From IMG/VR virus record IMGVR_UViG_3300050821_010764, positions 80,801 through 144,800 of that record: a DNA stretch of 64,000 nt. One strand, written 5' to 3'. The notes beneath the pieces are model-generated. The model was given only the letters and a program-made list of their open reading frames with translations. It did no database searches and had not been told where the DNA came from. This document shows positions 1-49,010 of the stretch, one piece after another; the stretch's first letter is position 1; every line of letters begins with the position of its first letter. Made by a program: the position numbers and the translations under genes. Source of the DNA: a virus.

Positions 1-2862
1 GATCCAAAGGCTAATATCAAGCATATTATTGCTGCCGCTAACACCCTTAATACTTATGTCGAGAACAAACAAAAGGAACTCGACAAGCTAGCAGACTTGA
101 CTTACTCAGCTACTTTGACTGTAAATGACCCTCAAGGACATGAAGGTGGAAATAGCACACAAGTTACAGTCAATGCGACGGACCTTGCTAAATTCAAAGA
201 AGACGTCGAGGCAGCTTTTCAGAAATTGAGTGAAATTAAAAATTCTGGAAAAGATACTACTAATGATACGGCATCTAATCAAGAGCTAGGTACTGTGATA
301 CCAGCCGCTGATTCTGGATTGGCTCCCCCACACGCAAGATATGCATCCGCTGAAGTAGGGGTGGATCCTATTGCTGAACTTCATGAGGTTACTAGAACCA
401 TTGAAGCCAAGCTGAGCCAAATGAAACAAAGCTTGGACAAGTTAGCAAACACTTCTACTACAAACAAACAAGAGGAAAATATGTCTGGATCAAATGAAAC
501 TGTAAAAAAGGGTTATTACCAAGGCGCCGGTGGCGTTAATGAGCCTACCCCTGGTCAGGCAAAATATCCAAAGGATCCTCTTCAAGAGCATCTCCGTGAA
601 AAAGAGGATAAACAAATGGTGGGTCAACCTCCATTTCCAGATGTAGGACCAGTCGATGGTATGCATCCATCCCCAGAATCTGCTGACCAGTCTAATGAGT
701 TAGAGCGTAAAAAGATGCTTGCTCGTGCTGAGTCTGAAGAGAGAGCCCAACGTCGTCAAGCGATTGTTGATTTAGCTAAGAGAACTATTGAAAACAAAAA
801 AACCGCTTGGTTTCAAAATGGTGATGGCAACAACCCAGGAACCCCAACTCCAGGTAAACCAAAATACCCAGTTGATAAACTAGAGTATGTACTTCGTGAA
901 CACGAAGATAAGCAGATGGTTGGACAGAAGCCTTTCCCAGGTGTTGGTCCAGTTGATGGTCTTCATCCATCTCCACAATCCGCTGACACCTCTGATGAGT
1001 TAAAGCGTAAGGAAATGCTACGTAGAGCTGGTTTAATAGCCAGATTCGTTCGTGCTTCCAATAATGATGGTACTGCCAATCTAGGTAATAGTGCTTGGGA
1101 AGTTTATCTTGGTGACAAGCTACTTCTTACTGCCTCTGTCAATGAACTATCTGGTGGACGTGCTGAAGTATTACATGACAGCATTGCAACCCGTGAATTC
1201 GGTGGCAAACTAATTGAGAAGATTAAGACTCATGGTGCAGACAAGATTCGCTCCTTAGTAAAGAGTGGACAACCAGCTCCAGGCGGTGCTCCTCCAGCTC
1301 CAGGCGGTGACGCAGGCGCTCCACCAGCAGGTGGCGATGCCGGTCCTCCAGCCGAAGATACTGGTAAATCCGGTGATCCAAAAGATCAAGCTCTTGCATT
1401 AGCAGAGAAGGGTGTCGAGCTTAGCTCCGACCTTAACGAAGCAGTCAAGGCTATGGTCGGTGAGAAATCCGAAATGGGCGATATGGAAGGCGGACCAGCA
1501 GCAGCTCCAGAAATGGGTGCTTCAGCCTCCTTTAGTACACAAACACTCAACAATTTGAGGAAGGAACTTAATGGCGCGCTAACTCACGCTATGCAAGAAT
1601 CCATTGCTTCCATTAACGATCATGTTGAAGAACTTAATATGATTTCTGGATTATATGATAAGGGCGCAGTAACTGACTCTAACCAAGAGTTCGTTGGCTC
1701 TATCGTTGAAGATGCACTAAGCGAAGCCAAGACTGCAATTGCAGATGGTTTCAAATTGATGAGCGCATTTGTGAAGTACGCCCGTGGTACTACTGCCATC
1801 GTCAAGCGTGCAGAAATCGAGGCAGAACTAGAGGCATTAGCTGAGGGAGAGACTATGACAGGCGAACAAGACGCCAACAATGGCGATGATTTAATGGCTA
1901 TGATCAGCGATACCAATTCAGATTTGGATGCTATCCATGGTCTTATGGCAGATGACAACGCTCATGCCGGCGAAGAGCCACATGACGAGGCACTAGAGGG
2001 CTTACTAGACATGCCAGCAGATGATGCAAATGATCTTAAAGCCGGTGATTTGAAGCCAGAAACTATGCTAGACCCAGCAATGATGTCTCATGCATCTTTT
2101 GATACCAAAGAAGGTCGTCAAGCAATGAGAGCCAAGCTAGCCGCTGACGCTCTTGGCAAGCAAGACGACGGAGAAATCTCCGATATGTCTAAGCAAAAGT
2201 TTAGCGACATGCTAGACCAAGCTGACAAGCTTACTGATGGTCAAACTGACTTGGATACCAAGCCATCTGACAATCTAGGATATGTTGAAACTCTTCCAGA
2301 AGTTAACAAGGCTATGATGGATCTTGCAAAAGCTCCACCAAAGGTCCGTAAGGAAGCAGAAGCTATCCATAACCTAATCTCTGAAGGCAAGCTTCACCCA
2401 TCCGACCTAGACGCTCTAGTAGCAGAAGGTTTGGATAAGGATGCAGTAGCTTACTACAAGAAGTACTGGGCTCAGACTGAAGGTGGCGGAGAATTCGCCA
2501 GTGAATTGGTCAAGGAGCACGTCAAGGCAGACCTTGAGGCAGAACTTAACAAGTACAGAGTAAAGCTAGGACGTTCTTACGAACTAGCATATGACATGGT
2601 TGACCGTGGTTTGTGTCACCACGACAGAAACGCAGTTTCTGCCCAGGTAGATGAAATCATGAAGTTCAATGACGAGTCTTTCGATTCTCTAAAGAGAGTT
2701 GTTGCAAGACACCCAGTAACCAACCTTCGTAAGGAAGGTGGAAGAATGCCACAAGTTGGTATGATCGGTTCTGGTGACCTAAGCACCACACCACAGTCTG
2801 ATGGTGATATGTTTGCACAATTGTCGGCAGCATTTTCTAAGACTTCCAAGAGAAGTTTCTAA
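1..2862 (+). CDS. Large head-associated virion protein, 5' end outside window
   Basis: The reading frame is open from the first base of the window, so the true start lies upstream; a TTG at 97 is only an internal codon. The visible part has about 953 residues. It contains two tandem copies of a 73-74 residue repeat (511-729 and 808-1029) sharing EDKQMVGQ, PFP, VGPVDG and HPSP blocks, then a Pro/Gly/Ala-rich linker (about 1264-1370), an acidic helical middle and a charged helical C-terminus. No enzyme motif is visible. It heads a run of short-spaced genes leading to the capsid genes, so I infer a head-associated role (core, scaffold or internal protein). The family is not recognised; a baseplate or other virion role cannot be excluded. 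Confidence 0.55.
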   Translation, partial: DPKANIKHIIAAANTLNTYVENKQKELDKLADLTYSATLTVNDPQGHEGGNSTQVTVNATDLAKFKEDVEAAFQKLSEIKNSGKDTTNDTASNQELGTVIPAADSGLAPPHARYASAEVGVDPIAELHEVTRTIEAKLSQMKQSLDKLANTSTTNKQEENMSGSNETVKKGYYQGAGGVNEPTPGQAKYPKDPLQEHLREKEDKQMVGQPPFPDVGPVDGMHPSPESADQSNELERKKMLARAESEERAQRRQAIVDLAKRTIENKKTAWFQNGDGNNPGTPTPGKPKYPVDKLEYVLREHEDKQMVGQKPFPGVGPVDGLHPSPQSADTSDELKRKEMLRRAGLIARFVRASNNDGTANLGNSAWEVYLGDKLLLTASVNELSGGRAEVLHDSIATREFGGKLIEKIKTHGADKIRSLVKSGQPAPGGAPPAPGGDAGAPPAGGDAGPPAEDTGKSGDPKDQALALAEKGVELSSDLNEAVKAMVGEKSEMGDMEGGPAAAPEMGASASFSTQTLNNLRKELNGALTHAMQESIASINDHVEELNMISGLYDKGAVTDSNQEFVGSIVEDALSEAKTAIADGFKLMSAFVKYARGTTAIVKRAEIEAELEALAEGETMTGEQDANNGDDLMAMISDTNSDLDAIHGLMADDNAHAGEEPHDEALEGLLDMPADDANDLKAGDLKPETMLDPAMMSHASFDTKEGRQAMRAKLAADALGKQDDGEISDMSKQKFSDMLDQADKLTDGQTDLDTKPSDNLGYVETLPEVNKAMMDLAKAPPKVRKEAEAIHNLISEGKLHPSDLDALVAEGLDKDAVAYYKKYWAQTEGGGEFASELVKEHVKADLEAELNKYRVKLGRSYELAYDMVDRGLCHHDRNAVSAQVDEIMKFNDESFDSLKRVVARHPVTNLRKEGGRMPQVGMIGSGDLSTTPQSDGDMFAQLSAAFSKTSKRSF
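511..729 (+). repeat. Protein-level tandem repeat, copy 1
   Basis: First copy of a 73-residue module inside the large head-associated protein. It begins with an aromatic/Gly/Pro-rich stretch, then KYP, LRE and EDKQMVGQ, and ends in an EL-RK-ML-RA helix. The pattern matches copy 2 at 808-1029 at most positions, while the DNA has diverged, so the duplication is old. Confidence 0.85.
808..1029 (+). repeat. Protein-level tandem repeat, copy 2
   Basis: Second copy of the module, 74 residues. It conserves EDKQMVGQ, PFPGVGPVDG, HPSP and the closing charged helix. The spacer between copies is a basic helical stretch of 26 residues. Two identical modules could be docking sites or processing-site linkers; this is inference. 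Confidence 0.85.
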
Positions 2863-2888
2863 GAACTAAACAACTAATAGAGGATACT

Positions 2889-3773
2889 ATGACTAATAAA
2901 AGTGTATCAGATTTTGTCGCTGCAACCATGGATGCAGTACTAAAGAGCGCAGAGCACAAGGCTTTGTTCGGCACCCAATACAAATATGCTTCGGATGAAA
3001 ACGATGCAAAGTGTTCAAAGTGTGGCAAGGATGCTTGCTCATGCGGTGACACCGGTATGGCAGATGACAATGAAGCAAAAAAGAAGATGCCACCTTGGCT
3101 AAAAGATAAGAGTGACTCTGCTAGTGCGGACGATCAAGATGCCAAGAAAAAGAAAGACTCTTCTGGTGATTCTTCCAGTGCTTGGGATGACAACGATGCT
3201 CGTAAGAAGAAGGATTCTTCCTCTTCCAGCAGCGATTCAGCCAGCGCTTGGGATGACAATGACGCCCGTAAAAAGAAGGACTCCTCTGGTGATTCTTCTA
3301 GTGCAGATGATAACGATGCTCGCAAAAAGAAGGAAGAATCTTCTAGCTCCAGCGATTCTTCTAGCGCAGATGATTTGGAAACTTCCGCAGCATTTGATGT
3401 TGCTATCGACAGCCTATTGACTGCTTCCGCAGCTCTTGACTCTGTCGGTATGGAAAAGTCTTCTGCATTCAGTTTGAAGCTTGCTTCTTTGGTTGTTGAA
3501 GCCAAGAAGAAGGACAAGGATTCTAAGAAGAGCAAGAGCGATTCTAACGATGCTAAGGATAAAGCCAAGGCAAAGAAAGAAAAAGAGCTAGCCGCCGAAA
3601 AGAAGAAGAAAGAAAAAGAGAAGGCTGATGCTCAATCCGCTAAGGATAAGGCTGCCAAGGAAAAAGAGAAGGAAAAGGCTAAAGCAAAAGCAGATAAAGA
3701 CAAGGCTGATGCTCAAGCTGCTAAAGATAAAGCTTCCAAAGAGAAGGCAAAATCATCTTCTTCTAAGAAGTAA
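2889..3773 (+). CDS. Zinc-knuckle and lysine-rich histone-H1-like protein
   Basis: ATG follows a GAGGAT ribosome binding site. The 294 residues divide into a helical N-terminus, a four-cysteine cluster (C42, C45, C50, C52) that looks like a small zinc site, four low-complexity repeats of the type DDNDARKKK-DSS-rich (about residues 60-160), a helical segment (about 165-207) ending in an ALDSVGM motif, and a C-terminal tail of about 85 residues that is almost only Lys, Ala, Glu, Asp and Ser. Such tails resemble histone H1 or bacterial HC1-type DNA-binding tails. It sits between head-region genes, so a DNA-condensing or internal head protein is plausible but unproven. The ALDSVGM segment resembles the helical core of the next two proteins. 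Confidence 0.6.
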   Translation: MTNKSVSDFVAATMDAVLKSAEHKALFGTQYKYASDENDAKCSKCGKDACSCGDTGMADDNEAKKKMPPWLKDKSDSASADDQDAKKKKDSSGDSSSAWDDNDARKKKDSSSSSSDSASAWDDNDARKKKDSSGDSSSADDNDARKKKEESSSSSDSSSADDLETSAAFDVAIDSLLTASAALDSVGMEKSSAFSLKLASLVVEAKKKDKDSKKSKSDSNDAKDKAKAKKEKELAAEKKKKEKEKADAQSAKDKAAKEKEKEKAKAKADKDKADAQAAKDKASKEKAKSSSSKK

Positions 3774-3796
3774 TTAACTTCCAATAAGAGGATATC

Positions 3797-4024
3797 ATGT
3801 TTAAAACAGCCAGTTTCGAAGAAGAGATCTATCGTTCAATGGAAAAGAAATTGGTGTCAAACCAATTAGAAGAGAAGCATGGATTTACTAGGCTAGCTCA
3901 AGCTGCCGACTATCTTAATGCTGCCGCTGAAATTTTTGATCAAGCTGGTATGACCGAACAATCTGAAGAAGTAACAGAGGTCTTGCAGGGATTGGCTCAA
4001 CAGCTATCCGGCAAGACTTCTTAA
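3797..4024 (+). CDS. Small helical head-region protein, paralogue 1
   Basis: A 75-residue protein starting at ATG behind AGAGGAT. It begins with a short segment containing FEEEIYRSMEK and continues with a predicted helical hairpin carrying AADYLNAAAEIF and a GMTEQSEEV turn. The next gene, only 11 bases away, encodes the same two elements, so the pair arose by tandem duplication. No catalytic residue is visible. Position among head-region genes suggests a virion or assembly role. The family is not recognised. Confidence 0.65.
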   Translation: MFKTASFEEEIYRSMEKKLVSNQLEEKHGFTRLAQAADYLNAAAEIFDQAGMTEQSEEVTEVLQGLAQQLSGKTS

Positions 4025-32774: not shown

Positions 32775-34739
32775 ATGGTTTTCTACCCTAATCCATCTAA
32801 TGTCGGAACTAATCAAGTATCTTCGCTTGGTGACGGATACACTATTAATGTTACCTGGTTTCCAGCCGAACATTCTGCTCCGAAAAACAAGATAGCCTAT
32901 CAAATTTACTACTCTATCGTCAAAGAGACTGTCTTTGCCGAAGGACCTAAGCTTGTTTCCATTGATGGCGCCACTTCCGCCAATATCATCGATTTAACTC
33001 CAGGACAAGACTATTTTATTGCGGTTAGACCTGTAGAATACGATCCAACCATTTTTGATTTGACTTTGCTCCCCATTGCTCATGATAATCTAAGGTTTTA
33101 CCCACACAGCATCCTAAGACACGATATGACAGCTGCCGATTTGGTGGTGCCACTTCTAGATGTAGAAGGCTTCCCTGATGCTGGAGTAGTTAAAGTAGGT
33201 GTCGAACTCATTAGATATTTGGCTATTGATCATGTCAATAACAACCTTGTTGTTCCTGCCGGTGGCGGAGGTGCTCAACCAGTTCGATTAGTGGACCAAG
33301 GTGGTGGTAATTTCTTTACCGCCTCTCCTTCCAATGTTGGTCATGGCTCTGTTACTAATTTAACTGCCGTCTCTGGTTCTGGTGGTCCAACTGAAACTTG
33401 GACTATTAAATGTGTTTTCGTGCAAAGAGATATGTCCAACAACCCAATGCCGGGCACTGCTCAGTTTATTGCTATTGGCACCGTCTCTGGTCAAAAATTA
33501 GATGTACACGGTAATCCATTTGTCTGGACTGCCAATGGAATGGTCGTCTCTAACGGTATTTTAAGTTTTTCCATTACTGAAACGGCTCCGCCATTTAGAC
33601 CAGGTGATTTATTCACTATCAAAGTAGCTGGAGCAGTCGCAGGTGCTGCGAGCGGGCGCGGCTATAACAATTCTACTGCCACTCTTCATACAGTGGGCGG
33701 CTCCGATGGACTTAATACTTGGGATCCAACTGTGCCACTATTTACAGTCGGAGAAGACTCCCGTTGGGACCTAATCTATATTTGCCAATCACGTTTCGAG
33801 TATCCTCATTTTCCATTTACCATGGTGGATGGTTATCACCAGGTTGCCAAAGATTTGCTATCCACAGATTTATCCGCAGCTGATGCTGCTAACGTTACTT
33901 TCCCGGCATTCGACTTCGCAGGATATCATAGAACTGATCCAGTACAATTATTGAATGGTACTTGTGTAGGCAGCTACATTGGTGGAGAAATGGGTTGTAT
34001 TGATGGATATGGTAACGTACAAATTCTAAGAGGGTTTTCCTTACAAGATCAAAATACTCAGAGACAAGATGTCTTGCTATCGGTAACTGGTAAGCCAGCT
34101 GTTTTGATTAAGAGGGTGCAGACCGGAATTACTTGTAATTGTTATCTTCCATCTAGCGAGCATCCAGATGATAGATGTCCATTTTGCTATGGTACCAAAT
34201 TTGTTTTCGGTTACGAGCAATATTTTAATCCGCGCCGTTCTGATGGTAGAATTTTGGTTAGACCAGGACCAACCGAAGAAAGTTTAAAACGATATGAAGC
34301 CGGTATGGAGTCAGAGTTTCCATTGGACTTGTGGACACTAACTGTTCCCACTATCAAGATGAGAGATATCATTGTAATGTTTGACCAGGATGACAATGAA
34401 GAGTTTAGATATGAAGTGGCGGGTGTCATTAGAAACAATACCATCAATGGTCTAGATGGTGGTCAACATTTCAAGGTGATTAGAATTAGAAAGTTTGACC
34501 CAGCTTATCAAATCAGAATATTTAGAAATACTGCGGACTTCCCAAGCAAGCTGAATACTAGCATTGGATTCGTTCCTGGTATTCCTCCTCATACTCATGA
34601 GATCGTCATAAATGAGAAGATTATGTCGGTCAATCAAATAAATCAAACTACAGCGGTTTCACAGGGACATAATCATCCAATCGTCAATGGACAGGTTATG
34701 GAAGCGCTAGGGCATACCCACACTATCATCTTGCCGTAA
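32775..34739 (+). CDS. Modular fibre/baseplate protein sharing a domain with the tail sheath
   Basis: A 654-residue protein. The N-terminal 90 residues look like a fibronectin type III domain (YTINVTWFPAEH... YFIAVRPV). Residues 170-287 (encoded 33282-33635) match residues 127-245 of the tail sheath, with RLVDQGG, ETWTIKCVFVQR, VSGQKLD-HGNPFVW and FRPGDLFTI. A zinc-type cluster CNC (C454, C456) and CPFCYG (C468, C471) follows. The C-terminus has HTHEI, GHNHP and GHTHT pairs, as in metal-binding tips of T4-like fibres. I infer a virion protein near the tail; a neck location is also possible because CxC/CxxCxG proteins occur there. Confidence 0.6.
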   Translation: MVFYPNPSNVGTNQVSSLGDGYTINVTWFPAEHSAPKNKIAYQIYYSIVKETVFAEGPKLVSIDGATSANIIDLTPGQDYFIAVRPVEYDPTIFDLTLLPIAHDNLRFYPHSILRHDMTAADLVVPLLDVEGFPDAGVVKVGVELIRYLAIDHVNNNLVVPAGGGGAQPVRLVDQGGGNFFTASPSNVGHGSVTNLTAVSGSGGPTETWTIKCVFVQRDMSNNPMPGTAQFIAIGTVSGQKLDVHGNPFVWTANGMVVSNGILSFSITETAPPFRPGDLFTIKVAGAVAGAASGRGYNNSTATLHTVGGSDGLNTWDPTVPLFTVGEDSRWDLIYICQSRFEYPHFPFTMVDGYHQVAKDLLSTDLSAADAANVTFPAFDFAGYHRTDPVQLLNGTCVGSYIGGEMGCIDGYGNVQILRGFSLQDQNTQRQDVLLSVTGKPAVLIKRVQTGITCNCYLPSSEHPDDRCPFCYGTKFVFGYEQYFNPRRSDGRILVRPGPTEESLKRYEAGMESEFPLDLWTLTVPTIKMRDIIVMFDQDDNEEFRYEVAGVIRNNTINGLDGGQHFKVIRIRKFDPAYQIRIFRNTADFPSKLNTSIGFVPGIPPHTHEIVINEKIMSVNQINQTTAVSQGHNHPIVNGQVMEALGHTHTIILP

Positions 34740-36022: not shown

Positions 36023-36847
36023 ATGGGACTATCAAGGCTAAATAAAAAACTCTTCACTTCATCTGGAACTTGGCTCGCACCTGCTGGCATTACTCAAATC
36101 ACAGTATTTGGTATGGGTGCTGGTGGTGGTGGAGGAGGTGGAGGTGGCGGAGGCATTACTAATCCTGGAGGAGGAGGATCTGGTGGTGGTGGAGCTATTC
36201 ACAACGTACAAATTATCACCGTAGTTCCAGGCGTTTCATATGCCATTACTATTGGTGGAGGGGGTGCGTCTGGTAGTGGTGGTACTGGTGGAGGCAATGG
36301 TGGTAATGGTGGAGATGGTGGTGATACTACTTTTGATGGTCTTGCTACATTCTATGGTGCTGGAGGTGGATTTGGTGGTAGAGGAAATTTTGGTGGCAAC
36401 TCTTTCGTTGTAGGTGGGGCTCCCCGTCGTGGGTTATTTCCGGGTTCTGGTGATGGCGCTCCGAGTAATCCGGGTCAAGGTGGTTTTGGTATTACCAGAG
36501 GTTGGTCTGTTGCAAGGGTTGGAGCCCTTCTTCTTAATGGTGGGGCAACGGCTGCTGGTCCTGGTGGTGGTTCTGGTGGTCCAGGTTTTGATGGTACTGA
36601 TTTGGGTGGAGGTGGAGGAGGCGGTGGTGGAGCTAGTACTTGGAATGGAATGCAGGCAGGATTTGGAAATCCTGGTGGACCAGGTTTTCCAATCAATGGT
36701 GGTAGCGGTCAAGTTGGTCCCAGTTTAGGTGCGGGTGGTGGAGGTGGAGGCGGTGGCGGCGGCACCGATTCAGGTCAACCATTGCGTGGTGGTGCCTCAG
36801 GAACAGCTGGCGCTTCGGGCGCGTTAATAATTTTGTGGATAGAGTAA
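36023..36847 (+). CDS. Glycine-rich adhesin-like protein, copy 1
   Basis: A 274-residue protein after AAAGGAA. It starts with the common leader LFTSSGTWLAPAGITQITVFG followed by poly-Gly runs, an AIHNVQIITVVPGVSYAITIGGGG hairpin and DTTFDGLATFYGA, then many Gly-Gly blocks. This composition fits Gly-rich domain proteins such as the polyglycine-II tip adhesins of some T4-like phages. It is the first of three tandem paralogues, which share the order of blocks but differ in the Gly-rich loops. Receptor binding at the fibre tip is inferred. Confidence 0.6.
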   Translation: MGLSRLNKKLFTSSGTWLAPAGITQITVFGMGAGGGGGGGGGGGITNPGGGGSGGGGAIHNVQIITVVPGVSYAITIGGGGASGSGGTGGGNGGNGGDGGDTTFDGLATFYGAGGGFGGRGNFGGNSFVVGGAPRRGLFPGSGDGAPSNPGQGGFGITRGWSVARVGALLLNGGATAAGPGGGSGGPGFDGTDLGGGGGGGGGASTWNGMQAGFGNPGGPGFPINGGSGQVGPSLGAGGGGGGGGGGTDSGQPLRGGASGTAGASGALIILWIE

Positions 36848-37669
36848 ATGAGTAGATTAAACACACAAACATTTCTTTCATCTGGAACTTGGACTGCACC
36901 TGCGGGTGTAACCCAAGTTACACTGTTTGGTATTGGTGGCGGCGGCGGTGGTGGTGGCGGAGGAAGTGGAGGAACAGGATCTCCTGGATTGCCTGGTACT
37001 GGTGGTGGTGGAGGTGGCGGAGCCATTCATAGAATACTCACAGTTAATGTTGTTCCAGGAACCGTATATACGATAACTATTGGCGCTGGCGGCGGAGGCG
37101 GGTCAGGTAGTGGAGGTGGCGCTAATGGTGCTCCTGGTGGAGATGCTGGTGATACTACCTTTGATGGTCTTGCTACATTTCGTGGAGCCCAAAGGGGTTC
37201 AGGAGGCGTTGCGGCTACAACTGGTACAACCACTTTTGGTCCTGCTGGACAGCCAGCTAAGTTGGTTTCTTTTGGTGTTGGTCTTGGAGCGCAAGAAAAT
37301 GTTGGTTCGGGTGGTGAAGGAGTTAGTAGAGGTGTAGCAGTTAGCACTTCAGTAGCTAGTGGTAGTGGAACTGCAAACAATGTTGGGGGCGGTGGCGCTT
37401 TTGCTGGTGGTGATGATCAAGCTTTAGGTGGTCAAGGTGGAGGTGGTGGCGGTGCTAGTACTTGGCCAGGCGGAAATGGTGGAACTGGTATTCCTGGAGG
37501 TCCAGGTTACGCTATTAATGGCGGTGGTGGATCTGCTGGACCAGGTATTGCTGGGGGTGGAGGAGGTGGTGGTGGCGGTGGTGGAACTGTTACTGGTCAG
37601 CCGCTACGTTCTGGCAGTAATGGACAAGCTGGTGGCAGTGGCGCATTAACAGTTACGTGGGTAGAATAA
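36848..37669 (+). CDS. Glycine-rich adhesin-like protein, copy 2
   Basis: A 273-residue paralogue of copy 1 beginning directly after its stop. FLSSGTWTAPAGVTQVTLFG, AIHRILTVNVVPGTVYTITIG and DTTFDGLATFRGA match closely, and DNA around DTTFDGLATF (about 37150-37180) is nearly identical to 36325-36355 in copy 1. The variable part lies in the Gly loops (residues 110-230). Its TAA overlaps the ATG of copy 3. Confidence 0.6.
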   Translation: MSRLNTQTFLSSGTWTAPAGVTQVTLFGIGGGGGGGGGGSGGTGSPGLPGTGGGGGGGAIHRILTVNVVPGTVYTITIGAGGGGGSGSGGGANGAPGGDAGDTTFDGLATFRGAQRGSGGVAATTGTTTFGPAGQPAKLVSFGVGLGAQENVGSGGEGVSRGVAVSTSVASGSGTANNVGGGGAFAGGDDQALGGQGGGGGGASTWPGGNGGTGIPGGPGYAINGGGGSAGPGIAGGGGGGGGGGGTVTGQPLRSGSNGQAGGSGALTVTWVE

Positions 37670-38532
37670 TGACTCTTAGTAAATTCAACAAACAACTATT
37701 TACTTCTTCTGGAACTTGGACAGCTCCTTCTGGAGTTACTGTTGTCATTTTACGTGGTATTGGAGGCGGTGGAGGTGGAGCTGGTGGAGGTGGAGGAGAT
37801 ATTAACGTAGCTGGAGAGGGTGGCGGAGGTGGAGGTGGTGCACGACAGAATACGGCAGTGTTAGACGTTATACCGGGAGTTGTTTATTCGGTTAATATTG
37901 GTATTGGTGGAACGGGCGGTTTAGGGGGAGGAACTGGTTCAGTTAGTGCTCCTGGTGGCAATTCTACAGATGGACAGGACACTACCTTTGCAGATCCTAC
38001 TCCGACCACATTAGCAACATTTCGTGGAGCTAGTGCGACATTTGGCGGAGTCAATGCTAATGAAGGAACTATTTCGGCAGTAGGCGGACCGCCAGTAAAA
38101 GGATTATGGCCTTCTGGTTCTACCACTGGTGGTTCAGGTGGTCATCCACATAATACAGGTCAAGGTGGAGATGGTATTGGTAGAGGTAATGCTGGTGTAG
38201 ATTTTCTTCGTTTAGATGGCGCCTCTACTGAAGCTGGCACGGCAGGCGGTCGTGGAGCTTTAGGGACTAACGGTGGTAGAAATGGTGGAGGCTCTGGCGG
38301 AGGTGGTGGTGCGAGCACTTGGGAAGGTGGAACGGCAGGAGCTGGTGGAAATGGAACTCCCGGATTCGGAGCTTCTGGTACTGGTCCATTTACTGGTGGT
38401 GCAGGTACATTAGGTGGTGGCGGAGGTGGGGGCGGTGGTGGCGGTGGAACTATCAATGGACAACCATTGCGTGCAGGACAAGCCGGTGGTAATGGCGGAA
38501 ATGGTGCTTTAGAAATTAGTTGGGTTGAATAA
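37669..38532 (+). CDS. Glycine-rich adhesin-like protein, copy 3
   Basis: ATG at 37669 in TAATG is chosen; a GTG at 37657 lies in the previous gene. The 287-residue product repeats the design: LFTSSGTWTAPSGVTVVILRG, poly-Gly, VLDVIPGVVYSVNIGIGGTG, DTTFADPTPTTLATFRGA and a C-terminal ALEISWVE. It is the most diverged copy. No good ribosome binding site is seen, so translation is probably coupled to copy 2. Confidence 0.6.
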   Translation: MTLSKFNKQLFTSSGTWTAPSGVTVVILRGIGGGGGGAGGGGGDINVAGEGGGGGGGARQNTAVLDVIPGVVYSVNIGIGGTGGLGGGTGSVSAPGGNSTDGQDTTFADPTPTTLATFRGASATFGGVNANEGTISAVGGPPVKGLWPSGSTTGGSGGHPHNTGQGGDGIGRGNAGVDFLRLDGASTEAGTAGGRGALGTNGGRNGGGSGGGGGASTWEGGTAGAGGNGTPGFGASGTGPFTGGAGTLGGGGGGGGGGGGTINGQPLRAGQAGGNGGNGALEISWVE

Positions 38533-45033: not shown

Positions 45034-45219
45034 ATGAGCTTAGATGACAAATTCTTACTAATAAATCAAAAGTGTTCATGTATTGATCAGCCGCCTCGAT
45101 TAATTGATGGCTATGCTATAGTTAGAGAGCGCTGTTTACAATGTCATGGTAGGGGAGTTAAAACCTCTGAAATTTCATTGGCTGAATTAAAGGCTTGGTT
45201 AGATGGGTATTCTGGATAA
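45034..45219 (+). CDS. Small zinc-binding protein with a DnaJ-type CxxCxGxG motif
   Basis: The ATG at 45034 follows AAAGGA; earlier starts overlap the giant gene. The 61-residue product has CSC and CLQCHGRG, four cysteines spaced for one zinc ion; the second half fits the DnaJ zinc-finger repeat CxxCxGxG. A similar CxC...CxxCxG arrangement occurs in the 654-residue protein at 32775. It overlaps the next ATG (TAATG). A local chaperone or assembly factor for the tail is possible. Confidence 0.5.
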   Translation: MSLDDKFLLINQKCSCIDQPPRLIDGYAIVRERCLQCHGRGVKTSEISLAELKAWLDGYSG

Positions 45220-46043
45220 TGTCAACCAATAATTTTTTCAAATCTAATTTGATGAATCTACATCACGTTGTTCAGGCGTCGATGTTGGTCTATCCTAAAG
45301 AAATGATTATCTCGGTTCTCAGAGATTTCTTTTCTAAGGACGACTATTATCATTACTCTAAAGATCAATGGGGATTTGCTAATACTACTGATCATACCGA
45401 TTTGCCACCTGGCGCCGACATCCCCGAAGGCGCTATTGGCTCCACAGCTACTTCTAGCATTTTACTGCCCACCAGAGTATTTATCGGAGAGAACTATCGA
45501 TACGATGGAATTTATTATCCTGCCATCTTGGTCAAAAGTGGCGGGGCTCGTTACGTCCCAATTTCCATTAATAGAGAGCAAGAAGGAATTCAATACGAAG
45601 ACTTAATCTTTGAAGATGGCTATGGTAACCAAACTATTGTTCATAAACCAGTTTCTTTTATTACTGCTGGCATATGGGAAGGATCAATTATTGTTGATGT
45701 TTTAACTAGAAGTCTAAGAGCTAGAGACGACTTAGTAGAAGCAATGGGTATGTTCTTTGCGGACATTACTTTTGATACTCTTCATGATGTGGGCATTATA
45801 GTCAAACCGCCTGTTATTGGGGCTGCTTCAGAGGCAGATGATAGAAATGACAAGCTATTTAGGCAAACTCTCACATTAGATATAAGAACTGAGTGGAGAA
45901 GGGAAGTGCCCGTAAGCAACGTCATTGACGCTATCTTCTTCACCGCAACTTTTGAAGATTTATCTAGACCTAGCAGCCCCGTTCCCGCTAATATGACTGT
46001 TAATACCGAAGTTAGCTTGACGGATATGCTACTAAACATGTAA
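45219..46043 (+). CDS. Putative tail terminator/completion protein
   Basis: ATG in TAATG; a TTG at 45195 would overlap the previous gene. The 274-residue product has a core GSIIVDVLTRSLRARDDLVEAMGMFF and FDTLHDVGIIVKPP with alternating helices and strands, then a TLTLDIRTEWRREVP strand pair. It lies directly upstream of the sheath, where tail terminator proteins are often encoded. The assignment rests on position and general fold impression. Confidence 0.45.
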   Translation: MSTNNFFKSNLMNLHHVVQASMLVYPKEMIISVLRDFFSKDDYYHYSKDQWGFANTTDHTDLPPGADIPEGAIGSTATSSILLPTRVFIGENYRYDGIYYPAILVKSGGARYVPISINREQEGIQYEDLIFEDGYGNQTIVHKPVSFITAGIWEGSIIVDVLTRSLRARDDLVEAMGMFFADITFDTLHDVGIIVKPPVIGAASEADDRNDKLFRQTLTLDIRTEWRREVPVSNVIDAIFFTATFEDLSRPSSPVPANMTVNTEVSLTDMLLNM

Positions 46044-46184: not shown

Positions 46185-49010
46185 ATGGCTAACATACCAG
46201 GCGCAACAAATGTCCTACCAGGAGTTTTTACTGACGTAATTACTCAATCACGTGGAGTATCAGTTCCTGGTGGTTCACGTATAGCCGCTATGATCGGCGA
46301 AGGCTCCACCGATGAAACCCTAGTTTCGCAAGCTGTTGGTGGTGGTCAAGACGGATTAAACCCCAGCTATACTGGAACGACTGGTCGTGACGGCAGACAC
46401 TTTCAACTTCAAAATTTCCCTCTAATTTCCAATAGAACCACCCTCTTCAAGAATGGCATTCCTCTAGTTGGTCTAGAGTCACTTATTGACAGCAATCCCT
46501 TCAGCAACAAATTTGACTATAGAGTCGACATCACCACTGGCAAAGTAGAGCTTCAAAGAGCCCACTTAGTTGACCAGGGCGGAGCCTTTTACTCAGCACT
46601 TTCTACTAACGTCGGTGTCGGTGTTATCAACAACCTAACCCTTGGCGATCCTAATGCTCCACCAGAGACTTGGACAGTTAGATGTGTGTCTGTTCAAAGA
46701 AACCCAATGAACGTACCTATTGCTGGTACCGCCTCTTTCTTAGCCTTCGGATCTATTTCAGGAGCCAAGTTGGATGCCAATGGTAATCCAGTCGTCTGGA
46801 TTGCTAACAACAATATCGTTACCAACGGAGTTTTAAGCTTCTCTATTCAAGAGACTGCCTCTACTCCATTCCGTGAAGGCGATGCTTTCACTATTTTGGT
46901 TGCTAGCGGAGTTTTGGTTCGTAATGATTCTTTGACCGCCAACTATATCCCAGTCCTTAATTTGAATGACCCTGTTCTACTTCAAGGTCTTGGTGCAGTT
47001 GTTCAAAGACACGGTCTTCCAAGCTTAACTAACAATCTTTCTTTGGGCGCTCAATTAGCTTTTGCTAACAACGCACCCGCTCTATTGACCGTTCAAGCTG
47101 CCCCTCCTATCCCAAGAAGAACTTCTTATGTTCTAGATTCTGATGTCAATGCGTTAGCTCCAGATGATGATGAATTCATCTTCCCATTGCCAGTTGGTGT
47201 TACCCCAGATTTCAATTCCAACATTCACTTCTTCGTTAAGAATAACGCTACGAATGTTGAGACCCAAATTCTTCCAAACAAGCTAGCTTACTACTTACTT
47301 GATACGGCTGGACATCCAACTACTCATCAGTTTATTCAGGACAATACTCCTGCTCCAGGTGGTAACTCCTACTTCTATACTGTTAAGCAAAGTCTTGAAG
47401 ACCTAAACTTCGGCGAAGACGGTTACATTGGTAGAAACCTAGCTTTCCACAACCAAGGTGTTTTTAGTACTCCATCAGTAGTTTTCGATTCTAGCTACGT
47501 GGGTAAGGCTCTAAAAATTATTGACAGCAATAACTCTGCTAACCTAGGTGTCTTTCATGTCACTGCCGTAACTGGTGGAAAATTGTACGTGGTCGCAGAT
47601 GGCAGCACTTTCTCTCCATCTGTATTGACTGCAAATCCAGCTTACCTATCTGACTTTGCTAATGAAAGTCCGGTTAATTTCGTCGTCACTAATCCATTAA
47701 CTGGTTTACCAGTTATGAGTGGCTCTGGAACTGACGGTGTCTTGGTTACTTCCGGTCCAGCAACTGGCACTGCAACCCTTCATAGTCCGTCTGTTGACTT
47801 TAGCACAATCCCAGGTATCCTTACCTATAAGCTACAGATCAATGGTTCTGGCATTTCTACTGCCGCATTACCAGATGGTAATAATGGTTTGTATGACATC
47901 ACCCTTGTGACAGGAACTGGTGGTAGCAATACTATCACTCTTCAAAAGGCGATTGTTAACGAAAGCAACCTAGAGTATGAGATTTTGGATCCTTCTGGAA
48001 CCAGCAACTACGTTGTTGTTAACCATAACGTGGTACCAAATGGTTATGCTCTAAGAGTTACCATTGTGGACTCCAGAGATGCAGCCTTCTTCGATGCAGG
48101 TTGGATTACCGCTCTTGCTTCTCTAACAAAAGTTGAATGTGACATCTTGGTTCCGCTTCCAAAGCAAACCATCTCCGTTATCTTCCAGAATGCTCTTAGC
48201 CACTGTTTGAGCATGAGCAACATCAGGAACAAGAAGGAAAGAGTTCTGTTCATCGGAGCCATCAATGGATTGACTCCAGACAACCTAACTGGTGTTAAGC
48301 CAGCCGCCGTTGAAGATATTGGTATCTTAGAAGGTATCCAAGGAGAAACCATTACTGACATTCTTGCCGGTAACGTGGAAGACTTGGCTAACTACTCAGT
48401 GCCAGATGCTTTCGGTAACACCTTCAGAGCAGTCTTCTTCTATCCAGACCAGATTGTAGTTCAAGCAGGAACTGATAACGTCTTGATTGACGGTTTCTAT
48501 CTTGCCGCTGCTGCCGCTGGATTTGAGTCTGCTGATGTTAGAATTGAGAACCCACTTACCAACAAGGTACTTAGTGGCTTTACCATCCTAAGAAACAAGC
48601 AGTTCTCTCCACAAACTCTAGAGGCTCTTGCTACGGCTGGTGTCACCACCCTACAACCTGTTGCAGGTGGAGGAAGAGTTGTGTGGGGTATTACAACTAC
48701 GCAAAGCGGATTCCCAGAAGAGCAAGAAATCTCAATTGTCTTTATCCGTGATAGAGTTGCTAAGACTCTAAGAGCTGGATTTGCCGGCTTCATTGGACAG
48801 GCTGCCGGTCCAAACACTGGTGCCATCTTGAATACACGTGGAGTTATTTTGTTGAACTCTTTGGTATCACAAGGTATCATCACTGCCTACAAAGACTTGG
48901 CAGTTGTACAAGATAGCGTTGATCCAAGACAGTGGGACGTCTCAGTAAGAGTACAGCCAACCTACCCAGTCAACTTCATCTACATCAAGGTAAGTTTGGG
49001 ACAACTATAA
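46185..49010 (+). CDS. Contractile tail sheath protein
   Basis: A 941-residue protein after AAGGAT. The N-terminus (LPGVFTDVITQSRGV and SRIAAMIGEG) and the C-terminal 150 residues (GRVVWGITTT, DRVAKTLRAGF, NTRGVILLNSLVSQGIITAYKD, VRVQPTYPVNFIYIKVSL) match the conserved assembly domain of sheath proteins, which interlocks rings and drives contraction. It is longer than typical sheaths because of inserted domains; residues 127-245 (46563-46919) are the module shared with the protein at 32775. The tube gene follows 17 bases later, the standard order. Confidence 0.85.
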   Translation: MANIPGATNVLPGVFTDVITQSRGVSVPGGSRIAAMIGEGSTDETLVSQAVGGGQDGLNPSYTGTTGRDGRHFQLQNFPLISNRTTLFKNGIPLVGLESLIDSNPFSNKFDYRVDITTGKVELQRAHLVDQGGAFYSALSTNVGVGVINNLTLGDPNAPPETWTVRCVSVQRNPMNVPIAGTASFLAFGSISGAKLDANGNPVVWIANNNIVTNGVLSFSIQETASTPFREGDAFTILVASGVLVRNDSLTANYIPVLNLNDPVLLQGLGAVVQRHGLPSLTNNLSLGAQLAFANNAPALLTVQAAPPIPRRTSYVLDSDVNALAPDDDEFIFPLPVGVTPDFNSNIHFFVKNNATNVETQILPNKLAYYLLDTAGHPTTHQFIQDNTPAPGGNSYFYTVKQSLEDLNFGEDGYIGRNLAFHNQGVFSTPSVVFDSSYVGKALKIIDSNNSANLGVFHVTAVTGGKLYVVADGSTFSPSVLTANPAYLSDFANESPVNFVVTNPLTGLPVMSGSGTDGVLVTSGPATGTATLHSPSVDFSTIPGILTYKLQINGSGISTAALPDGNNGLYDITLVTGTGGSNTITLQKAIVNESNLEYEILDPSGTSNYVVVNHNVVPNGYALRVTIVDSRDAAFFDAGWITALASLTKVECDILVPLPKQTISVIFQNALSHCLSMSNIRNKKERVLFIGAINGLTPDNLTGVKPAAVEDIGILEGIQGETITDILAGNVEDLANYSVPDAFGNTFRAVFFYPDQIVVQAGTDNVLIDGFYLAAAAAGFESADVRIENPLTNKVLSGFTILRNKQFSPQTLEALATAGVTTLQPVAGGGRVVWGITTTQSGFPEEQEISIVFIRDRVAKTLRAGFAGFIGQAAGPNTGAILNTRGVILLNSLVSQGIITAYKDLAVVQDSVDPRQWDVSVRVQPTYPVNFIYIKVSLGQL

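Follow-up and report, generated by a model that had tools for sequence, protein, structure and literature searches.

One module of about 120 residues is present in two essential virion machines of a single phage genome, the contractile tail sheath and a 654-residue protein that is probably the neck stopper, the plug of the head. The module is constrained in the sheath, whereas in the neck it is optional and fast-evolving. The very large, uncultured phages of this family employ a single building block, hitherto undescribed, at more than one place on their particle, which is a well-documented new case of virion domain shuffling. The account that we consider likely is that of a mobile all-beta module, fixed in the sheath and dispensable in the stopper. 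The window analysed here comprises 64,000 nucleotides (positions 80801-144800 of a 144.8-kb virus record), and its relevant features are given in Table 1.

Two copies of one module

A preliminary description had placed a module of about 118 residues in the tail sheath and in the protein that starts at 32775. This module was recovered when the whole proteins were compared by BLASTP, with residues 168-288 of the 654-residue protein aligned to residues 124-243 of the sheath (68 of 122 positions identical, 56%, 3 gaps, E 2e-34), and its coordinates proved exact. The four motif pairs that had been named, such as RLVDQGG/HLVDQGG and FRPGDLFTI/FREGDAFTI, are all present and follow the same order in both proteins. 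At the DNA level the two copies are alike only in short patches (71-76%), so a recent duplication is not indicated and the copies are old. No third copy was found in the 144.8-kb record, nor in an all-frame search of the window.

The AlphaFold predictions agree in terms of strand order. The sheath module modelled alone (mean pLDDT 94) has strands at 24-31, 39-47, 62-67, 95-102 and 112-118. Inside the model of the 654-residue protein, the strands are at 190-198, 207-215, 230-235, 263-270 and 279-285. No difference in fold was seen that would speak against a common domain.

As for the novelty of such sharing, of which the preliminary description knew no account, one part stands: no report came to light in which sheath and neck carry a common domain. 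The wider phenomenon is known: sheaths with additional domains, often of Ig-like type, have been described (PMC9230969), as has the shuffling of domains between structural proteins of phages (PMC10684548). As far as the literature was searched, the new elements are the domain family, its sharing by sheath and neck in one genome under opposite evolutionary regimes, and a tetra-cysteine stopper in huge phages.

Table 1. Coordinates of the two module-bearing genes and their parts in the window.
Feature	Position	Strand	Evidence
654-aa virion protein, probable neck stopper (head-completion protein)	32775..34739	+	Foldseek to 8q01_S, prob 1.00; tetra-cysteine loop
N-terminal fibronectin type III-like domain	32808..33044	+	Profile matches to Neogenin/DCC FN3, best E 8e-5; Pfam fn3 in 16/49 family members
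Whole insertion in the host hinge domain, with GGGG-type linkers and flanked by '...NNNL' and 'RGYNN'	33264..33656	+	Absent in most homologues, which read NLILTNISQRGYNN; both linkers with reduced pLDDT
Module copy in the 654-aa protein (residues 168-289)	33276..33641	+	BLASTP to sheath copy; same predicted strands
Tetra-cysteine (CxC...CPxC) loop of the putative stopper core, residues 451-477	34125..34205	+	hhalign to Herelleviridae stoppers
C-terminal triple HxH motif, residues 606-649	34590..34721	+	No change in any of the six His over 49 homologues
Contractile tail sheath, 941 aa	46185..49010	+	Residues 640-939 match phrog_279 (tail sheath), E 8.5e-20
Sheath copy of the module (about residues 123-247)	46551..46925	+	In every full-length homologous sheath ORF examined; AlphaFold pLDDT 94.2
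Conserved C-terminal sheath core, sole part alignable with phage G and LE2-3 sheaths	48099..49007	+	hhalign E 6.9e-12 and 1.4e-20

Identity of the 654-residue protein

In the AlphaFold model of this protein, an N-terminal FN3-like domain is followed by the module-bearing hinge, then by a core and an end rich in histidine. FN3 structures aside, the Foldseek match to the stopper of phage 812 (8q01_S) spans nearly the whole target, with 221 alignment columns for a target length of 227. The TM-score of the whole model to the stopper is modest (TMt 0.39).

In sequence, the match to stoppers is limited to 27 residues. Over these 27 columns, hhalign places C454-x-C456...C468-x-x-C471 without gaps on the zinc-binding tetra-cysteine loop of the stopper, with E 2.9e-4 against phage 812 alone and 1.6e-5 against a profile of eight stoppers. 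All four cysteines are kept in 44 of the 49 homologues. The stopper family phrog_1004 was matched by 2 of 11 members (best E 0.0024), and phrog_38102, which also has a weak match to a stopper relative from phage phiT5282EW, by 20 of the 49 (best 3.6e-9).

The likeness to the Herelleviridae neck stopper (phage 812 gp97, PDB 8q01, phrog_1004) thus covers the predicted core fold, the tetra-cysteine loop and the gene order, with the gene upstream of the sheath and tube genes as in phage 812. Unlike gp97, the 654-residue protein has the FN3-like domain, a hinge with an optional module and the C-terminal triple HxH. Taken as a whole, the predicted structure and the loop argue strongly for a neck stopper. 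The fibre or baseplate protein originally proposed as the partner of the sheath was not borne out, with the structural match and the loop making a stopper the most likely identity; a baseplate role was rejected, as the baseplate-wedge PHROG is matched by only 2 of the 49 members.

According to the study of phage 812, the tetra-cysteine motif is kept in Herelleviridae stoppers and in no other phage group (PMC12886913). Here, in contrast, it is found in huge phages, in what is likely a neck stopper with the same zinc loop. The three HxH pairs at the C-terminus of the protein form a possible metal-binding end.

The module in the sheath and stopper families

At least 69 relatives of the sheath and at least 76 of the 654-residue protein are present in IMG/VR. 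Many come from contigs of 200-480 kb, which marks the group as mainly huge phages. In the collection of isolate phages, the module has no close relative, and relatives of the two proteins are almost absent. The IMG/VR search for the module needed an alignment of both copies, and nothing was found with the module of the 654-residue protein alone. One match came from a bacterial genome, a Chitinophagales MAG contig with a phage sheath and a stopper fragment, which was read as binned phage and rejected as proof of a host.

The sheath module lies N-terminal of the contractile core (about residues 123-247 against about 639-940). The core also matches phrog_2839 (E 3e-11), with Pfam sheath domains below the gathering score. 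Homology to the sheaths of phage G and Eggerthella phage LE2-3 is restricted to the C-terminal ~300 residues, which speaks against the segment being part of a universal sheath core. The preliminary description had suggested looking for the same insert in the sheaths of huge phages, and within this sheath family the module is universal, at about residues 125-255. In the collected set, the only long sheath ORF that lacks it (L057) is truncated at its 5' end. Among 20 related records the sheath carries the module in all 20, and the sole other host is the homologue of the 654-residue protein, in 6.

The module has the sequence position of the outermost domain of phage G gp178, residues 120-218 (PMC8570332), which suggests by analogy that it likely faces outward. 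The Foldseek match to gp178 is weak (TMq 0.45), and sequence homology to the gp178 outer domain or to T4 gp18 was not detectable. The PF22639 profile (T4 gp18 domain I) reached 1 of 67 members (E 0.009) and hhalign to T4 gp18 gave 2%. Homology by sequence to either outer domain was rejected at this sensitivity. In general terms, the extra domains in the sheaths of T4 (gp18), phage G (gp178) and phage 812 are likewise beta-rich and precede the contractile core, in the N-terminal portion of the protein (PMC9230969, PMC8570332). Sharing with a neck protein is not described there.

A contrasting picture is seen in the stopper family, where the module is optional. It is present, between linkers, at one junction in a surface loop in 14 of 63 scorable rows (distinct homologues). 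On a core tree built without the module, its presence changes state at least 7 times, with one partial row of unknown state left out of this count, and a topology that unites all module-bearing rows in one clade is rejected (AU p 8e-6). On the module tree, a single origin of all stopper copies is not rejected (AU p 0.23), and the branching of the stopper copies does not mirror that of the sheath copies.

The module-less consensus of the host region is 'IKIGVELIQYLSVDTVNNNLILTNISQRGYNNTxAxxHTVDGYDG'. Members with the module have 'VPxGGxx - module - xPGG' in place of 'LTNISQ', before RG. Inside the module-bearing clade, module-less relatives have NLIVP..NGRGYN where other module-less members read NLILTNISQRGYNN. 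Several of them, with the readings NLIVPANGRGYN, NLIVPSTGRGFN and NLIVPINGRGIN, keep pieces of both linkers, which is best read as at least one in-frame deletion of the module that left a linker scar. The Fisher tests that accompany this comparison are descriptive only, being blind to relatedness. In a distant pair, L211 and L216, the module is found at a different site, after the RG motif ('LQRGYLSD - module - GGARPHTVDGYDG'), and clusters with the sheath modules of the same lineage (99/94). Both features suggest a second, independent insertion.

Two unusual forms were also observed. The stopper homologue L244:9566-12877 has 1104 residues, with the module and a 417-residue insertion in the core. 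In L187 and L242, the stopper-family modules are expanded by repeated DGYGN/DGYTNPY-like segments and have an unusual composition.

In terms of rates, the stopper module has a median identity of 46% in the main clade, against 70% for the core of the same proteins, and is below the core in 45 of 45 pairs. The sheath module has 64%, against 65% for the C-terminal core and 47% for the middle region. With one copy conserved at core level and the other changing faster, the sheath module looks structurally bound and the stopper module accessory, and the conservation in the sheath favours a structural role. The stoppers of close relatives with and without the module offer a natural and direct test of what an accessory virion domain does.

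That the stopper copy evolves fast and has been lost repeatedly would also be expected of a functionless duplication within the genome, in which a fragment of the sheath was pasted into the stopper gene about 11 kb away and is now eroding. We consider this improbable. The stopper copies have kept their fold-defining residues and reading frame over deep divergence, and distant lineages carry the module too, one of them at a different site, which suggests repeated retention. A recent copy from the window's own sheath was rejected as well, since the stopper module of the window clusters with the other nine stopper modules of the clade (98/94) and not with that sheath.

Wider family and possible roles

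No Pfam or PHROG family was found to cover the module, which points to an unannotated domain family missing from both. By its profile matches, the module of the huge phages is the long form of a wider, unnamed family. A short form is present in tail proteins that siphophages encode downstream of the tape measure, in Pseudomonas phage Ab19 (gp67) and Stenotrophomonas phages Bhz54, Summit and DLP_5. The hhalign match between the module and Ab19 gp67 reaches 97.9% (E 3e-13). Profile matches are reciprocal, with the short-form HMM matching the sheath of the window at iE 1.3e-5 and the 654-residue protein at 1.5e-5. The short form has about 85-90 residues; the huge-phage form is longer by an N-terminal LVDQGG segment and by two more, one around QRNPMNxPIAG and one around DANGNPxVW. 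Signature residues kept in both forms are G.G, ETWT, GS.SG (GSVSG) and F..GDxFT (alignment A9). A match of this alignment to beta-galactosidase was partial and repetitive, and was set aside.

After masking of the module, the flanks of its hosts fell into ten BLAST clusters, one of which, with 41 flank residues, is too short to be counted. These include the huge-phage sheath, a siphophage tail protein, the stopper, a J-like tip, a podovirus-type tail protein, a major tail protein and a T4-type sheath, with the labels "J-like" and "podovirus-type" coming from a reading of the sequences. The portable domain that had been suspected is supported here, both by its optional insertion in the stopper family and by these short relatives, whose host virion proteins have unrelated flanks and include a T4-type sheath with no relation to that of the window.

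Some hosts show further variation. The podovirus-type tail protein (L267:1144-3165) has a circularly permuted module, with the F..GDxFT half ahead of the G.G/ETWT/GSVSG half, and a siphophage major tail protein (L353:456-2453, PDB match E 4.6e-21) carries three copies. The T4-type sheath (L346:2482-4131, PDB gp18 E 3.5e-29) has the short form at residues 154-238 of the ORF. This ORF belongs to a 389-kb record, G001 (L346, L367, L368), where the domain is found in six places in five ORFs, including one of 2856 residues and two others above 1000. Furthermore, two different ORFs of one phage (L317:3-1586 and 2614-3948) have modules that are 37% identical (E 9e-14). The second of these is weakly tail-tube-like, and the pair is a further case of sharing within a genome.

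A parallel in behaviour is seen in the promiscuous Ig-like domains that phages carry (Fraser et al. 2006, as cited in PMC9230969), which are likewise small and all-beta, present in unrelated virion proteins, and gained or lost between relatives. The module is, however, outside the Pfam Ig families (best Big_1 at E 0.097, none above the cut-off), and it is often inserted internally, in a junction, instead of being appended at the C-terminus. The best PDB Foldseek matches of the module are the flagellar junction proteins FlgL and FlgK (E 5.7e-3 to 0.04, TMq about 0.5). No sequence match to these was found, and the resemblance is at the level of fold only.

The mobile-module account would be as follows. 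The module would be an all-beta accessory domain that folds by itself and passes from one virion protein to another by insertion into surface loops or domain junctions. In the sheath of this huge-phage lineage it would have become fixed upstream of the contractile core, where its core-level conservation would most likely reflect a structural outer layer with subunit contacts, possibly a stabilising one. Another copy would have been inserted in the hinge region of the putative neck stopper, where it is dispensable, evolves fast and has been deleted at least once with a linker scar. As for function, we can tentatively say that the module may stabilise the particle or be weakly adhesive.

A low-affinity carbohydrate-binding module, spread over sheath and neck and helping the particle to stick to cells or mucus, would suit an all-beta surface domain that is common to several virion proteins of unrelated phages. 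Adhesion has been proposed as a benefit of Ig-like domains on sheaths (PMC9230969), and the fast evolution of the stopper copy would suit a binding surface. This glycan-binding role, raised in the preliminary description, seems unlikely to us, given that the module matches no carbohydrate-binding family, that its Foldseek matches are the flagellar junction proteins and that its sheath copy is conserved at core level across diverse phages, unlike a surface that recognises receptors or sets host range. The stopper is also a hexamer in phage 812, and would thus add few copies.

It is similarly doubtful that one phage-specific beta domain coats the entire tail-neck axis from outside as an interchangeable unit, taken up independently by sheaths of at least two unrelated lineages, by the tubes and tips of tails and by the neck stopper, with the stopper copy in this clade contacting the sheath copy homotypically or binding the same surface ligand. 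Least probable of all is a homotypic connector, in which the stopper module mimics a sheath subunit and ties the neck to the top sheath ring: the same fold does occur in exactly these two proteins, with no third host in the 20 related records, and the beta-sandwich of the phage 812 tail terminator clamps the top sheath ring (PMC12886913), but a needed connector should not be absent from most relatives and repeatedly lost, nor should the two copies fail to track each other in the module tree.

Finally, two observations concern the genes between stopper and sheath. A 282-residue ORF directly upstream of the sheath (window 45195-46043) is highly conserved in the clade and would be the tail terminator by position, with no profile match to that of phage 812. 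Three consecutive glycine-rich paralogues (window 36023-38532) share the start 'FxSSGTWxAPxGxT' and are probably fibre tips.
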